From Anaerolineales bacterium (GTDB lineage Bacteria; Chloroflexota; Anaerolineae; Anaerolineales; Villigracilaceae), in the NCBI GenBank assembly GCA_014379595.1, contig JACMLM010000066.1:1-64000 (forward strand): a stretch of 64,000 nucleotides of DNA. The letters run 5' to 3'. The translations under genes and the position numbers were made by a program. Position 1 is the stretch's first letter, and each line of letters opens with the position of its first letter. The notes beneath the pieces were generated by a model. The model was not told where the DNA came from. It did no database searches and saw only the letters and a list, made by a program, of their open reading frames with translations. Positions 8,131 to 20,627 of this stretch are shown piece after piece.

Positions 8131-9572
8131 GAATTCAGCACCTTCAAAATAAACTCTGCCGTTCGCTTTCCTGCACCTGCATCAGTAAATGTAATTTCGT
8201 TTTCGATAAACTTTCTGCGTTCAGCCGAATCTACAGTTTTATCTTTCAAATACATATTTAACATATCACGCAACTCAGTTTCATTGCTTGCTACGCGTCC
8301 CGCCTTGGCTTCGCGGAAGCGTTTATGCGTAGGCCAGTCACCGATCTCTTTCAGAGATAAAGAGAATTTCTTTGCTTTGTTCCATCCGCCAGGGGTATCA
8401 ATCGTTGCGGCGATCATAGGGGTATCGTGGACAGCGGTCTCGACCAGCATGGTGGAGTAGACCGTCACAACTACATCGGAATACGCCATCATGGATGATT
8501 TCTCGTCCATGTCTTCGCCGCCGTAGTAGCCGAGTGACCCACCCAATGCCACAGGCTGAACAACATGCACATTGGGATATTTCTTCTCCAACTCGAAAAC
8601 TTGTGCGCGTTCATCTGCAAAGATTTTCGGCTTATCTTGAAAGTGACTGGGATGCAATCGGATCAACAACTGCGAAGGTTCTGCCAGTGAATCAGATGAA
8701 ATCAATTTCGCCAGCGCTTCGATGTTCGGATAGTTCGGCGCGAAGTGGACAAAACTGCTAGCGTACGAGATTAACTTGCGCTTCGGGTCGAGTCCATGTA
8801 ATTTGAAATATTCGTCATGCGGCATTAACCATTGCTTGCGGAAATATCCGTCGTACGATGGGATACCACCAATATGCACATGCTCGGGATTCCAATCTGA
8901 ACCTTTGACAAGTTCCTCTTTTTGCAATTCAGACCAACAAGTCGCCCACTGCACATCAGCGCCTGATACGTTGTACGAAGATGAATTATCCCAGCCGACG
9001 ATGACGGTCATGTTTGGGATTCCACGCTTGGCGGATTCGCGCAGGAGATAACGGTCCATGCGCCAGCCTGGAGTCGAAGCGATGACCATGTCGGGTTGAT
9101 ATTTGTCGAAGAGGTTAGTGTACAGGCCTGGGGTAGGCGTGAAGCGGTTTTGCATCCGAATCAAAAGTTTGCGGGCGAAGGAAAAATTCCGCAGGAGGAG
9201 AATCATCAGCGCGGAGGGAATCCAAATGCCCAAACGAAATTTCCAGCCGTTCTCCGCCCAGACTTCCCAGATGTGGCTGTCCATGGCTTCGGTGTTGATG
9301 CGGCGCGAGCCGCCGACGCGGCGCAGGTAGGCGAGCAGCCATTGAAGGCGCGGTTGGATTTTTTTTGCATACTCATTGGCTTGCTTTAAGCGTAAGCCTT
9401 CAAAGATGAGACCGTGCTGCGTGAAACGTGATGCGATTTTTTCTTTGGTGTCGTCGTCGGTGAGGACGATGATCTCAACGCCCGCAGCAAGCAGAGTCGG
9501 GACGACGTTGCTTTGCAGGAAGTAGATGATTGCCATGCCATGGTCGGCGGAGATGAAGATACGTTTGGTCAC
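8127..9572 (-). CDS. GT-B glycosyltransferase of the CDP-glycerol/capsule transferase type
   Basis: 481 residues from a GTG start. The N-terminal lobe begins with FISADHGMAIIYFLQS. The C-terminal lobe holds LISYASSFVHF, LLIRLHPSHF and the DVVVTVYSTMLVETAVHDTP segment, matching the nucleotide-sugar-binding helix of CDP-glycerol glycerophosphotransferases and capsule transferases. It probably adds a sugar or polyol-phosphate unit in the cytoplasm. The stop codon lies within a dispersed palindrome, so the last one or two residues may derive from the repeat. The specific donor is unknown. Confidence 0.65.
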   Translation of the reverse strand: MTKRIFISADHGMAIIYFLQSNVVPTLLAAGVEIIVLTDDDTKEKIASRFTQHGLIFEGLRLKQANEYAKKIQPRLQWLLAYLRRVGGSRRINTEAMDSHIWEVWAENGWKFRLGIWIPSALMILLLRNFSFARKLLIRMQNRFTPTPGLYTNLFDKYQPDMVIASTPGWRMDRYLLRESAKRGIPNMTVIVGWDNSSSYNVSGADVQWATCWSELQKEELVKGSDWNPEHVHIGGIPSYDGYFRKQWLMPHDEYFKLHGLDPKRKLISYASSFVHFAPNYPNIEALAKLISSDSLAEPSQLLIRLHPSHFQDKPKIFADERAQVFELEKKYPNVHVVQPVALGGSLGYYGGEDMDEKSSMMAYSDVVVTVYSTMLVETAVHDTPMIAATIDTPGGWNKAKKFSLSLKEIGDWPTHKRFREAKAGRVASNETELRDMLNMYLKDKTVDSAERRKFIENEITFTDAGAGKRTAEFILKVLNS

Positions 9573-16542: not shown

Positions 16543-17613
16543 CTACATGCCCAATTCCGTCCAGCGGAGTTCTTTGCCAAGTGGCATATCGCTCAATGCT
16601 TTTGTGCCAATTATATTTTGAATCTGGTCAGGTTTGATGGCGCCAGGTGTGGCGGGACGAAGTACGTCGATCATATCACGCGTAAAAATTTCGCCTGCTT
16701 TAATTTCGCGCGCGGCGCGCAGACAACGGCGCTGGACAATTTGAGTCTCTTGTTCATTATCAGCAATGAACTTATCAGAACTTCCCAATGAACGTTCCAG
16801 CAGACGAGTCTCTTCGACCATCTTTGCCCAATTTTCAGGATTCATCGCAAACTTATGATCTGGGCCTTCGCGGTCATTGCTGTCTGTAAAGTGACGCTCG
16901 ATCACACGCGCACCTAATGTTACCGCACCGAGAACAGGTGCAACAGAATGAGTATGATCTGACAATCCTAAAATTACGTCAGGGAACATGGTTGCAAATG
17001 TTTTCAAAACATTCAAATGTAAATGGTCGTAATTATTCGGGCTAGCTGTGTAATTTGTATTGCATTGCATCAACACCAATTGTTTATTAATTTTCATAAT
17101 GGCATGAACTGCTTTTTGTACTTCCCCTATTGTAGATGCACCTGTGGCGACAAAGAACGGTTTGCCTTTAGCCGCCATTCTCTCCAAGGCTTCGATCCAG
17201 TCAATTTCACCCGAGCCAGCTTTGTAAACTTCCACATATTGATCAAGGAAATCAATCGCTTCAAAATCATACGGCGAGGAGAAGTAGTCAATGCCTACTT
17301 CGTTACATTCCTCAACTAATGTCATAGACCATTCAAACGGAATAGATGCGCCTTTGTATACTTCAAACACGGATTTCTTCCATGAGGCTTGGTGACTCAC
17401 TTGTCCACCATTCATGGATTTGAAACCGTAATCCGAGACGATCTTCGGCGCATCAAAATTCTGGAATTTGGCTGCATCCGCGCCTGCTTCTTTCGCCAAT
17501 CGGATTAATTGCTTCGCACGTTCCATGTCACCATCGTGATTGGCAGCGATGTCAGCAATGAAATAAGTAGGGTGGTTTAAGCCGATGGTTCGTTTTCCAA
17601 ATTTAATTTCCAT
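16543..17613 (-). CDS. neuB: Nonulosonate synthase (NeuB/LegI/PseI family)
   Basis: 356 residues. The TIM-barrel part contains NH at 25-26, KFQ at 49-51, KAGSGEIDW at 131-139, GLSDHTHS at 216-223 and ERHFTDS at 239-245. The C-terminal SAF (antifreeze-like) domain covers about 296-356. It condenses phosphoenolpyruvate with a 6-carbon amino sugar to give a 9-carbon sialic-acid-like sugar. NANHDG in place of the usual E-x-G-x-NHNG type start is a small departure. A strong GGAGG precedes the ATG, and the ATG overlaps the GDPD gene by 11 nt. Leg, Pse and Neu synthases cannot be separated reliably by eye. Confidence 0.92.
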   Translation of the reverse strand: MEIKFGKRTIGLNHPTYFIADIAANHDGDMERAKQLIRLAKEAGADAAKFQNFDAPKIVSDYGFKSMNGGQVSHQASWKKSVFEVYKGASIPFEWSMTLVEECNEVGIDYFSSPYDFEAIDFLDQYVEVYKAGSGEIDWIEALERMAAKGKPFFVATGASTIGEVQKAVHAIMKINKQLVLMQCNTNYTASPNNYDHLHLNVLKTFATMFPDVILGLSDHTHSVAPVLGAVTLGARVIERHFTDSNDREGPDHKFAMNPENWAKMVEETRLLERSLGSSDKFIADNEQETQIVQRRCLRAAREIKAGEIFTRDMIDVLRPATPGAIKPDQIQNIIGTKALSDMPLGKELRWTELGM

Positions 17614-18352
17614 AAGTTCCTCCGAAATTATGCCATTGATGATTCAAAATTTTTCTGGCATCCATAGGATTACCAACTGAAAGTACATCAATATCATATT
17701 TCTGAAACAAATCATTACTTTGATTCCAATACTCGACTAGAACCAGTGAGACGTTTATTGAATGGATTTGGTCAATATCTTCGGGACAAAACAGTCCATA
17801 GGAAACACTGACACAATCTGCTTTGATCTTCTGAAGATACTCAGCATAATTCAAAAGTCTACCAGTGAGCAAAGCACGGACAGTCAATTCAGGATAAGCA
17901 AGTTTTGTTTGAAGTAATTCCTTATGATCGAAAAACAATAACAGTACGTTATCTTTTGTATTTGTCCGCTCTATCAAGGGTAGCACTTCCTTCATTAAAT
18001 TTCCTTCTGGTTTGAAGAAAGTTTTCATATCTAAGGAGAAATGTACACCTGTATCTCGCGCCCAGACTAGTACATCTTCCAATTTTGGCAAATGCTCGCC
18101 ATCAATTTTGAATTCCTTTAACTCATTCCAAGGTATATCGTGACACCATCGTCCATCAGGCAATTGATAGTTATGGCGCAAAAATGGGATGCCATCCTGA
18201 CTCATTTGAACATCCACTTCGATCAAGTCGGCACCTAATTCATGCCCCAGCTTAATTGCCGCCCATGAATTTTCAGGCACATCCCCTTCAACGCCACGAT
18301 GGGATTCAATCAAAGTTCGTCCTGTTTTGGATTTTAGAAGTTCAAGAGTCAT
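17603..18352 (-). CDS. GDPD-family phosphodiesterase
   Basis: 249 residues, TIM-barrel family. The catalytic signature is intact: HRG at 18-20, PEN at 26-28, IEVDV at 44-48 and DG followed by H60. Relatives hydrolyse glycerophosphodiesters to glycerol 3-phosphate and an alcohol. There is no signal peptide, so it is cytoplasmic. It overlaps neuB (11 nt, ATGGAAATTAA) and the ADA-family gene (11 nt, ATGACTCTTGA), so the three are translated as a coupled set. Such a phosphodiesterase in a neuB cassette is unusual. It may process a glycerophosphate-linked or phosphodiester-linked sugar, but this is speculation. Confidence 0.85.
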   Translation of the reverse strand: MTLELLKSKTGRTLIESHRGVEGDVPENSWAAIKLGHELGADLIEVDVQMSQDGIPFLRHNYQLPDGRWCHDIPWNELKEFKIDGEHLPKLEDVLVWARDTGVHFSLDMKTFFKPEGNLMKEVLPLIERTNTKDNVLLLFFDHKELLQTKLAYPELTVRALLTGRLLNYAEYLQKIKADCVSVSYGLFCPEDIDQIHSINVSLVLVEYWNQSNDLFQKYDIDVLSVGNPMDARKILNHQWHNFGGTYGN

Positions 18353-19445
18353 AGGTCACTTCTTGGAATGCCGTAGTTTGCTGCGTATTAGTTAGATAAG
18401 ATTTCTCCCATTGAGAGATTTCCGAAAGATATTTAGTCTTTGATTCAGTTGTTGCATAAGATACTTGGATTGAGTTCTTGGCAAAACGTACAAGGTCATT
18501 TATCGTATACTCAAATTCCTTGGCCACAGCAATGTATTCATCACACAAAGAACTTCCAATAATTGAAGGGTCATCACTATTAATTGTGACAATTATGCCT
18601 AATTTATCTAACTTCTGAAACGGGTGTTGACTCATTGTTGGATAGATATTGAGGCGAATGTTACTTGTTGGGCATATATCCAAGGGAATTTGACGCTCAA
18701 CTAGTTCTTTAACTACATTCATGTCCTCAATTGAACGAACGCCATGACAAATACGATCCGCTTGCAACTCCTTGATTGCGCCCCAAACGCTATTCGCTCC
18801 ATCAGTTTCTCCAGCGTGTGGAATACTCCGCAAGCCCATTTGTTTTGCTTGCTGAAACACATTTCTAAATGGGTCTGGAGGAGCATCGCTTTCATTCCCT
18901 CCAAGTCCGATCCCAATTACGCCATATTCTCGTCCTTGAAGGGCATAATCTAAAACGTTAGTTGCTATTGTGGGGTCAAAAATTCTAGGATTGCGACCAC
19001 TGAAATGTCGATTGCGAGGGATGCCAAATATCCATTGCATTTCTACATCAAAATCATCACGTGCTTTCTGACAGCCCATAAGTAGTCCATCAAAAACATC
19101 CTGAAGATGCAAATTCTTTTCCCATATATGCAGGTGCTGGTAAATGGAAATGTACATTTCGCGATAACGGATGTTCTGATTCATCATATCGCGTCCACAC
19201 TCATATACCACAAGGGCAAAATCATCTGTGGAACGCATCAATTGCATACATATCTGATAATAAGAATGAAAATCTTCAAAACTTTGGAATATAATCGATT
19301 CTTGTAATAATTCAACTTTTTCAACAACCCCTAGATGCTGATATTTATGAGCCAACTTAAGAGCCACCGTTGGAGCAATAGCACCTTCCAAATGAACGTG
19401 AAGTTCAGCTTTGGGCAAAGTTTTGACAAGTTTATCCAGTTTCAT
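18342..19445 (-). CDS. Adenosine deaminase-family metallohydrolase
   Basis: 367 residues. All catalytic features of the ADA family are present: HVH at 16-18, HAGE at 210-213, CHG at 233-235 and the metal-binding SDDP at 290-293. It would deaminate adenosine or a related aminopurine or amino-sugar-like compound. A housekeeping purine enzyme is possible. However, it is the first gene of the 11-nt-overlap set ada-gdpd-neuB inside a glycan locus, which hints at a dedicated substrate. GGAAG precedes the ATG. The family is sure; the substrate is open. Confidence 0.82.
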   Translation of the reverse strand: MKLDKLVKTLPKAELHVHLEGAIAPTVALKLAHKYQHLGVVEKVELLQESIIFQSFEDFHSYYQICMQLMRSTDDFALVVYECGRDMMNQNIRYREMYISIYQHLHIWEKNLHLQDVFDGLLMGCQKARDDFDVEMQWIFGIPRNRHFSGRNPRIFDPTIATNVLDYALQGREYGVIGIGLGGNESDAPPDPFRNVFQQAKQMGLRSIPHAGETDGANSVWGAIKELQADRICHGVRSIEDMNVVKELVERQIPLDICPTSNIRLNIYPTMSQHPFQKLDKLGIIVTINSDDPSIIGSSLCDEYIAVAKEFEYTINDLVRFAKNSIQVSYATTESKTKYLSEISQWEKSYLTNTQQTTAFQEVTYDS

Positions 19446-19460
19446 AAGTTACTTCCAATC

Positions 19461-19538
19461 CTACCCAAATGTGTGTCCTGAAATGAAGTAGGTGAGGTGA
19501 TTCAAGCCAATCGTTCGATTTCCAAACTTGATTTCCAT
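19461..19538 (-). pseudogene. Truncated neuB 5' end (remnant)
   Basis: The minus strand here reads a ribosome binding site (GGAGAAATT) and ATG, then MEIKFGNRTIGLNHLTYFI before diverging and stopping at codon 26. The intact neuB starts MEIKFGKRTIGLNHPTYFI: 17 of 19 residues match, with several synonymous base changes. The similarity ends abruptly just before the conserved NH motif. This is a duplicated or displaced neuB start left next to the ada-gdpd-neuB cassette. It is too short to be an enzyme. It could still be translated as a leader peptide. Confidence 0.75.
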
Positions 19539-19552
19539 AATTTCTCCGATTC

Positions 19553-19831
19553 TGTGGAAAAAGGTGAGTAAAGGCTGTGGATAACTAGGTACAAACTGTG
19601 GATAACTCTCCAGAAAATTCAATAATTCCGGAATAAAATGCGTAATTCTTGTGGAAAAATCTCGTGTTTTTTAGGCAAAACTGTGACTCAGAGTGGATAA
19701 AATCTGCTTTTATTGTTGATAACTTCGGATTTTCTGTGGATAACCATCCTGATATTGTGTGTAAAACTCATCCAAACCTGTGGAGAATTGGGGGAGAGAT
19801 TCGCCTAAATCTGTGGATAACTTGTGGATGG
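19553..19831 (-). promoter_or_regulatory. Cluster of DnaA-box-like sequences, all in one orientation
   Basis: Four exact TTATCCACA boxes (minus strand) lie at 19576-19584, 19597-19605, 19735-19743 and 19812-19820. All four share the 11-mer CTGTGGATAAC on the plus strand. One-mismatch to two-mismatch relatives are at 19553, 19650, 19692, 19714, 19779 and 19823, all in the same orientation. The first two boxes are 21 bp apart, about two helical turns. The group covers the 264-bp gap after rmlD and the last codons of rmlD. It could bind DnaA (titration, regulation or an origin-like role) or be an iteron-like array. Confidence 0.55.
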
Positions 19832-20627
19832 ATAAACATAAATTATGAGCACGCGGAGCAGCCAGACCCGAAGAGAGTATAGACTTCGGAGAAATCTCAC
19901 TTTCTTTTAGACTAAATTCACGGGCAACCTCCACCCCAAACTGATATTTGCTCATGGCATCTCTGCCAACCAGATGATACAGACCACTGAGCTTCTTCTC
20001 CAGCATTTTCACCAGGATACGGGCTGTGTCATTAACCAGCATTGGGCAAAAAACCACGTCTGTGAATCCGCTGATACTTTTATTATCACTAAGATTATAG
20101 AAGAAAAATTCTGCCAGGCTTCGTCTTCCCCCCAGGCTCCAGCCATAAAAATTAACGCGTGCAACGATGTTATTTGAATTTTCACTGAGCACAGCGCGCT
20201 CGCCATCTAGTTTTGTTTTTGAATAAACGCCAAGCGGATTGGGCAAATCATCTTCAGTATAAAAACCGTCTTTTTTACCATCAAAGACAGCGTCGGTTGA
20301 AATGTGAACGAATGAAACCCCCCGTGCCTTACAAGCCTTTGCCATTTGCGCGGGCAGGTCAGTGTTCAAGCGGCGGGCAAGGTCTGGGTCCGCCTCGCAG
20401 GCATCCAGGTTCGCTAGAGCCGCGCAGTTGATCAGCCATTCGGGCTGGGCATCGTCGAGGATAGAGTCCACTGCGTCAGACTCTAATAAATCCATTTTCA
20501 AAATCTTAAAAGGCGGATTAACCAATTTGCTGCGATCCACACCGATAATGTCATGTTCATTCATCGTCTCATGTGCGAGATTAATTCCAAGTAAACCGCT
20601 GACTCCTGTAATGAGAATACGCGCCAC
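19710..20627 (-). CDS. RmlD-like dTDP-4-dehydrorhamnose reductase family protein
   Basis: 305 residues from a GTG start preceded by AAGGA. The Rossmann loop is GVSGLLG (8-14). HISTDAVFDG and the Tyr-x3-Lys site VYSKTK follow. The C-terminal APRAHNLCLSIHKL segment matches RmlD, where it precedes the end of the fold. It would reduce a 4-keto-6-deoxy sugar nucleotide. Next to PseB, it may act on the PseB product or on a related keto sugar, and not necessarily on dTDP-rhamnose. The last 30 codons contain two DnaA-box-like 11-mers, so the tail (DGYPQKIRSYQQ) may be shaped by that repeat. Confidence 0.78.
   Translation of the reverse strand: MARILITGVSGLLGINLAHETMNEHDIIGVDRSKLVNPPFKILKMDLLESDAVDSILDDAQPEWLINCAALANLDACEADPDLARRLNTDLPAQMAKACKARGVSFVHISTDAVFDGKKDGFYTEDDLPNPLGVYSKTKLDGERAVLSENSNNIVARVNFYGWSLGGRRSLAEFFFYNLSDNKSISGFTDVVFCPMLVNDTARILVKMLEKKLSGLYHLVGRDAMSKYQFGVEVAREFSLKESEISPKSILSSGLAAPRAHNLCLSIHKLSTDLGESLPQFSTGLDEFYTQYQDGYPQKIRSYQQ

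Follow-up and report, generated by a model that had tools for sequence, protein, structure and literature searches.

An origin-proximal array of one-way, helically phased DnaA boxes at the 3' end of rmlD in Anaerolineales: a candidate element for limiting free DnaA

Clusters of DnaA boxes that lie near the origin and restrain initiation have been described in E. coli, B. subtilis, and S. coelicolor (PMC4585315, PMC5295017, and PMC5010248). In E. coli, datA contains several strong DnaA boxes outside oriC, occupies a conserved position relative to oriC, and exerts a negative control over initiation (PMC5295017, PMC4585315); it is also described as deletable at a limited cost in fitness (PMC4585315). 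The DBCs of B. subtilis are clusters situated outside yet near oriC, where they hold DnaA and restrain initiation (PMC5010248, PMC5295017, PMC13220808). In S. coelicolor, an origin-near cluster is able to repress untimely initiation (PMC4585315).

The locus considered here is an array of DnaA boxes at the 3' end of an rmlD-like gene. It resembles datA in being a cluster comparable to the latter's group of about five strong boxes outside oriC (nine boxes, four of them exact, in the window, that is, in the whole stretch of 64,000 nucleotides analysed) and in having a conserved origin-proximal position, which was found in all ten of the genomes with both sites on one contig. The two differ in that datA is described as non-coding and as needing IHF, whereas the rmlD array is partly protein-coding; moreover, the boxes of the rmlD array, unlike those of datA, can be described as one-way and helically phased. 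The datA type is further marked by its stimulation of DnaA-ATP hydrolysis and by the over-initiation that follows its loss. The array is not claimed as a member of the datA class and is likened to it on the basis of how it probably works. With the B. subtilis DBCs, it shares a location outside and near oriC; there are, however, six DBCs, with a strong phenotype only when all are removed, and only one conserved cluster here besides the probable oriC. Titration sites of the DBC type are marked by the binding of DnaA in cells and by earlier initiation upon their deletion. The S. coelicolor cluster, which is similarly origin-near, belongs to another phylum. An oriC is itself an array of DnaA boxes, and the difference is that the combination of a box and a trio tract is found in this group beside spoVS (see below) and not at rmlD. 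In the open-access literature, as far as its accessible text extends, we found no DnaA-box site of this kind in the Anaerolineae or Chloroflexota and no link between a DnaA box and rmlD. To our knowledge, there is no report of DBCs embedded in coding sequence and subject to codon selection.

The window is part of contig C10 of a draft genome of 4.47 Mb in 72 contigs. An earlier, sequence-only reading had claimed that four 11-mers lie here in the same orientation with no further exact copy in the window, and both claims hold: CTGTGGATAAC occurs at 19575, 19596, 19734, and 19811 in a single orientation, and the four exact copies of TTATCCACA in the 64 kb are all within these 11-mers. When one mismatch is allowed, nine boxes (four of them exact) are found at 19553-19820, all on the minus strand; the one-mismatch boxes at 19553, 19650, 19692, 19714, and 19779 lie between or beside the exact ones. 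The same reading was right that weaker relatives exist, although it counted six and there are five at one mismatch. It had also remarked that the array ignores the gene boundary, and indeed four boxes are in the last 36 codons of rmlD (including the exact ones at 19735 and 19812) and five are between the stop and the adenosine deaminase-like gene (including the exact ones at 19576 and 19597). The start-to-start spacings are 23, 21, 53, 42, 22, 21, 44, and 33 bp, which are approximately whole helical turns. The features are as follows:

18342..19445, minus strand: adenosine deaminase-like gene, next after the array
19553..19561, minus strand: DnaA box with one mismatch (TTTTCCACA), past the rmlD stop
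19576..19584, minus strand: exact DnaA box (TTATCCACA), past the rmlD stop
19597..19605, minus strand: exact DnaA box, in the gap, 21 bp from the 19576 box
19650..19658, minus strand: DnaA box with one mismatch (TTTTCCACA), in the gap past the rmlD stop
19692..19700, minus strand: DnaA box with one mismatch (TTATCCACT), directly past the rmlD stop
19710..20627, minus strand: rmlD-like gene (RmlD_sub_bind, Pfam PF04321, 215.5 bits), whose 3' end holds part of the array
19714..19722, minus strand: DnaA box with one mismatch (TTATCAACA), in the last rmlD codons (SYQQ), offset -10
19735..19743, minus strand: exact DnaA box, in the GYPQ codons of rmlD, offset -31
19779..19787, minus strand: DnaA box with one mismatch (TTCTCCACA), in the FSTG codons of rmlD, offset -75
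19812..19820, minus strand: exact DnaA box, in the LST codons of rmlD, offset -108

Such a concentration of boxes is rare in this genome. In the window, 36 boxes with at most one mismatch were found against 19.1 expected, and this number was reached in none of 100 shuffles. Exact TTATCCACA occurs 92 times in the 4.47 Mb, and the reversed control motif 26 times. Frequent clusters across the genome, which the sequence-only reading had named as evidence against a special role, were not found: exact pairs with 5-34 bases between them occur in two places only, the rmlD array and C13:38918-39100, the latter directly upstream of spoVS (PF04232), and the reversed control gave no such pair in the draft genome. 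Across eight genomes, namely the window's own and seven that have long contigs, the rmlD or the spoVS site accounts for 17 of the 18 pair matches, and the reversed control gave one pair match. The dnaA gene, said earlier to be absent from the window, is on contig C15, where the exact boxes listed are all more than 30 kb from it; the DnaA of this genome carries all three Pfam domains, helix-turn-helix included.

A first search for relatives gave 36 congeneric genomes, or 37 with the window's own, and the 3' end of rmlD was read from 33 of these; none was obtained from G002, G003, G010, and G014, which are 71-79% complete. Boxes were counted in 33 of the 35 rows, leaving out L053, which duplicates L171, and L054, which repeats G011 at the end of a contig. 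The array is present in all 33 genomes, the window's own included, so the loss of the boxes in close relatives that would have spoken against it did not occur. Each genome has 4-11 boxes (median 8, with a median of 4 exact). Between -130 and +260 of the stop, 242 boxes are in the sense of rmlD and 2 are antisense; mononucleotide shuffling predicts about 2.6 sense boxes, and the largest value in 200 shuffles was 8. Within the gene, the boxes recur at the same offsets: -108 is filled in 29 of the 33 genomes (exact in 18), -75 in 27, -52 in 7, -31 in 30 (exact in 27), and -10 in 29. At least three boxes lie past the stop in 28 of the 33, the exceptions being G016 with none, G022, G036, and G024 with one each (G024 being at a contig end), and G017 with two. 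In two loci, L172 (G017) and L175 (G015), the rmlD frame is interrupted and the boxes persist, which may be due to sequencing error.

The wider listing of the genus comprises 57 genomes, the window's own included, of which the 20 beyond the first set are known from coordinates alone. By these coordinates, an exact pair lies no more than about 220 bp from the 3' end of rmlD in at least 10 of the 20; as to the rest, four have no rmlD match at the threshold, four have rmlD and no exact pair, and in G431 the exact pairs sit on a contig other than that of rmlD. Outside the genus, 17 rmlD loci from eight sister genera (10 picked for an exact pair and 7 not) all have at least two boxes in the gene and at least three in total, and the boxes run past the stop in eight sister-genus loci (g25, g30, and g34) and in one g24 genome. 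Among 13 genomes of other families, rmlD contains one to four sense boxes in seven and none in six; three antisense boxes were found at rmlD in this set, and no sense box past the stop within the stretch read. As for the named records of rmlD relatives, 23 of 26 bear Chloroflexi, Anaerolineae, or Anaerolineales-type names, including the 11 closest (64-76% identity), and the other three are distant; these names suggest that the organism belongs to the Anaerolineales.

The positions of the boxes follow the turn of the helix. For the 120 boxes past the stop in the 33 genomes, the best period in a scan from 5 to 30 bp was 10.6 bp (R 0.87), and for the 41 unique positions among them, equally phased random sets occurred 0 times in 5000. 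The period was 10.9 bp for the in-gene boxes alone, 10.7 bp for all boxes, and 10.85 bp (R 0.77) for 27 boxes of the sister genera; shared ancestry inflates all of these statistics. Depending on the species, the exact pair lies at 107/128, 117/138, 85/106, or 65/86 past the stop. Read from the sequences compared, the shifts of the boxes between species are whole helical turns.

Inside rmlD, the excess match to the box was calculated per offset, given the amino acids of each protein and pooled codon usage. The set comprised 33 sequences, namely, 27 genus loci and six named records, of which L220 and maybe others seemingly belong to sister genera. Since the sequences are related, the z-scores are inflated, and the ranks among offsets are therefore the fairer measure. 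Offsets -108, -31, -10, and -75 rank 1, 3, 4, and 5 of 572; the offset in second place matches poorly (0.97 bases of 9) and is no box, and -52 comes 24th. For the eight more distant relatives compared, offsets -75, -31, and -43 rank 1 to 3; these are 8 of the 12 named loci L227-L238, from which L227 (cut off), L229 (the same isolate as L228), and L236 and L238 (without a C-terminal match) were dropped. The peptide pattern YQxGYPQ, in any codons, gave 61 matches in 60 of 400 genomes of the order, which may not all be rmlD, and in 52 of the 61 the Gly, Tyr, and Pro codons are the one set that gives exact TTATCCACA (25 of 30 in other families, 15 of 16 in sister genera, and 12 of 15 in the genus). 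Judged by these codons, the in-gene boxes are maintained by synonymous codon choice, and, on the comparative evidence as a whole, the rmlD array is under selection.

The other cluster of exact pairs has a different anatomy. A match to spoVS was found in 47 genomes, and the best 30 of these loci were read; all 30 have a box with a CTACTANTATTA-matching tract after it, beside AT-rich DNA. This tract is read as DnaA-trios, the element that defines the basal unwinding system of oriC (PMC8287927). At the rmlD arrays, a box with a trio tract was found in 0 of 33, the nearest being G016 with two mismatches to the core, and the mean lowest GC content over 50 bp is 0.31 at rmlD (about 350 bp) versus 0.21 at spoVS (460 bp). 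In three sister-genus genomes, the second cluster also adjoins spoVS (82-87% identity); the trio core is exact in one of these, and in the other two it seems to be present in variant form. The trio tract and the AT-rich DNA make the spoVS site a likely oriC, and the analysis thus names a probable oriC for the genome and the group, upstream of spoVS and not beside dnaA. By eye, the probable oriC region (C13:38918-39355; L014, ~8900-9360) comes after a dihydroorotase-like gene.

A GC-skew check, which the sequence-only reading had proposed, favoured spoVS over rmlD without pinpointing the origin. The skew was corrected for gene strand and taken from 20-kb samples rather than whole genomes. In two complete genomes, the log-likelihood of spoVS exceeded that of rmlD by 7.1 (G021) and 5.3 (G026). 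The signal is weak, with best-fit origins elsewhere (380 kb in G021, 220 kb in G026, and 1.22 Mb in G017), and in G017, rmlD and spoVS are, respectively, 1.26 and 1.76 log units below the best fit, the sign at rmlD being wrong for an origin. When the fit for G026 was left unconstrained, origin and terminus came out 140-160 kb from each other, around the glycan locus, and the terminus was therefore constrained in the skew fits. Skew along C10 and C13, both from the window's genome, gave no informative signal. The idea that the array is a real origin in an unusual place is opposed by the unwinding anatomy, present at 30 of 30 spoVS loci versus 0 of 33 rmlD arrays; an origin at the rmlD array was rejected on the absent trio tract together with the preference of the skew for spoVS.

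The array and spoVS are on one contig in 10 genomes, where they are 55-465 kb apart. Seven of these are among the 33 genus genomes, the window's own not being one of them, and the distances are 237 (G021), 355 (G026), 399 (G017), 331 (G032), 375 (G023), 55 (G009, based on the placement of the spoVS gene alone), and 465 kb (G027); in the three sister genomes checked, they are 155 (G251), 418 (G259), and 228 kb (G191). In the five genomes with contigs longer than 3 Mb, the range is 155-355 kb; short contigs favour short distances, and shared gene order makes the distances dependent on one another. Three more sister genomes, G275, G242, and G172, have a second cluster of some kind on the contig that carries rmlD, at a distance of 62-358 kb. 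In the ten placeable genomes, then, the array is within about 0.5 Mb of what is probably oriC, a proximity that may be inherited gene order, the genomes not being independent. If spoVS marks oriC, the array is co-directional with the fork in 8 of the 10 and head-on in G009 and G251. A fixed direction relative to the fork was rejected as a rule, given these two head-on genomes.

The explanation that we favour, with moderate confidence, is that the array is a conserved origin-proximal, non-origin DnaA-binding element that limits free DnaA. The binding of DnaA and any effect on initiation at the array are what we infer from the boxes and their arrangement. DnaA would bind the one-way, phased boxes head-to-tail to form one cooperative complex; head-to-tail assembly on same-orientation boxes is described for E. 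coli oriC (PMC10316083). Because an origin-near site is copied soon after initiation, its two copies could hold, or inactivate, enough DnaA, and this doubled sink would discourage re-initiation, a function of titration or inactivation. Early duplication doubling a DnaA sink is the logic given for datA, to which the B. subtilis clusters are a parallel (PMC5010248). Of the four options in the sequence-only reading, DnaA titration is the best supported and stops short of proof. If true, this would be an origin-near DnaA sink of the Chloroflexota, with a coding core kept in several families of the order. Selection for helical phase and one-way orientation is directly visible in the array, and the set of arrays constitutes comparative data for testing DnaA titration.

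The main rival to such a sink is that a DnaA complex at the rmlD end acts on transcription into the downstream glycan genes, as a regulator or a road-block, and in this way couples the synthesis of envelope sugars to the cell cycle. Much of the evidence suits a transcriptional role, given that the array is part of a glycan operon whose genes run in one direction: the genes on either side of it are co-directional, and in many genomes the array takes up most of the space between rmlD and the following ORF; all nine of the more distant loci with ORFs listed have neuB as the first or second ORF past rmlD; and DnaA is a transcription factor in B. subtilis (PMC4447404). However, the next gene is variable. 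In the 32 genus loci with ORFs listed, it is neuB in 14, an ORF of 116-119 aa in 11 (DUF4260 by Pfam in the one tested), and others in seven, and so it is the end of rmlD, rather than any one gene downstream, that the array accompanies. Moreover, there is no minus-strand promoter-like match at 19400-19900 of the window, and in the 13 genomes of other families the sense boxes are, within the stretch read, inside rmlD only or absent. We regard transcriptional control as unlikely, though worth keeping in mind. A dedicated promoter for the ada-gdpd-neuB cassette, suggested by the sequence-only reading, is unlikely because ada comes next in only 1 of these 32 loci (the window's own) while the array stays with rmlD, and an ada-specific promoter was dropped for this reason. 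Both roles might also be combined, the end of rmlD being enzyme code and helical DnaA scaffold at once, with its occupancy limiting re-initiation and gating transcription of the glycan operon; this is distinctly improbable as a whole and, if true, would couple the making of surface sugars to the cycle of replication in much of the Anaerolineales.

Other explanations of the array fare worse than a DnaA sink. A second or auxiliary origin would account for a density and spacing of boxes like those of the spoVS-side cluster, both having a 21-bp-spaced exact pair with similar flanks; it is very improbable given the lack of a box with a trio tract in the 33 arrays, DNA that is less AT-rich than at spoVS, and a skew that favours spoVS in G021 and G026 (G017 being uninformative). 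That the motif serves another DNA-binding protein, or that its in-gene part reflects protein constraint alone, is improbable to much the same extent: the in-gene boxes do spell the conserved residues LST, FSTG, GYPQ, and SYQQ, but codon choice at their offsets goes beyond the amino-acid expectation, the boxes continue in phase past the stop codon, and the motif is found again at the probable oriC. There is likewise little chance that the array is a site for chromosome organisation or segregation with DnaA boxes as an anchor near oriC, which its conservation and origin-proximal position would suit, since nothing was seen that points to a partner protein. The idea, also raised in the sequence-only reading, that the array is iteron-like and left over from an integrated plasmid or phage has direct repeats in a single orientation in its favour and is hardly credible because the array keeps its place at the 3' end of rmlD in all 33 congeneric genomes read; coding boxes are found in 17 of 17 sister-genus loci, the boxes are within a reading frame, and the three neighbours in the window are by Pfam a deaminase, a GDPD, and NeuB. 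A plasmid remnant was rejected, there being no patchy distribution and no initiator among these three Pfam-tested neighbours.

Several minor observations concern the surroundings of the array and the rest of the genomes. The stretch that separates rmlD from neuB resembles a spot for insertions (window 16543-19445; loci L029-L057, L171, L225, and L226): it contains ada and gdpd here and a DUF4260, PMT-like, or PQQ-repeat gene in relatives, and in the named records, ada also follows rmlD in L225 and gdpd in L226. At C37:157885-158850 (L012, L013), a 476-aa open frame weakly matches the DnaA ATPase family at two neighbouring places. Finally, extra tandem runs of TTATCCACA occur away from rmlD in individual genomes, at G431:C94:20497-20571 and G355:C473:1383-1433, in units of 11 bp or 14 bp.
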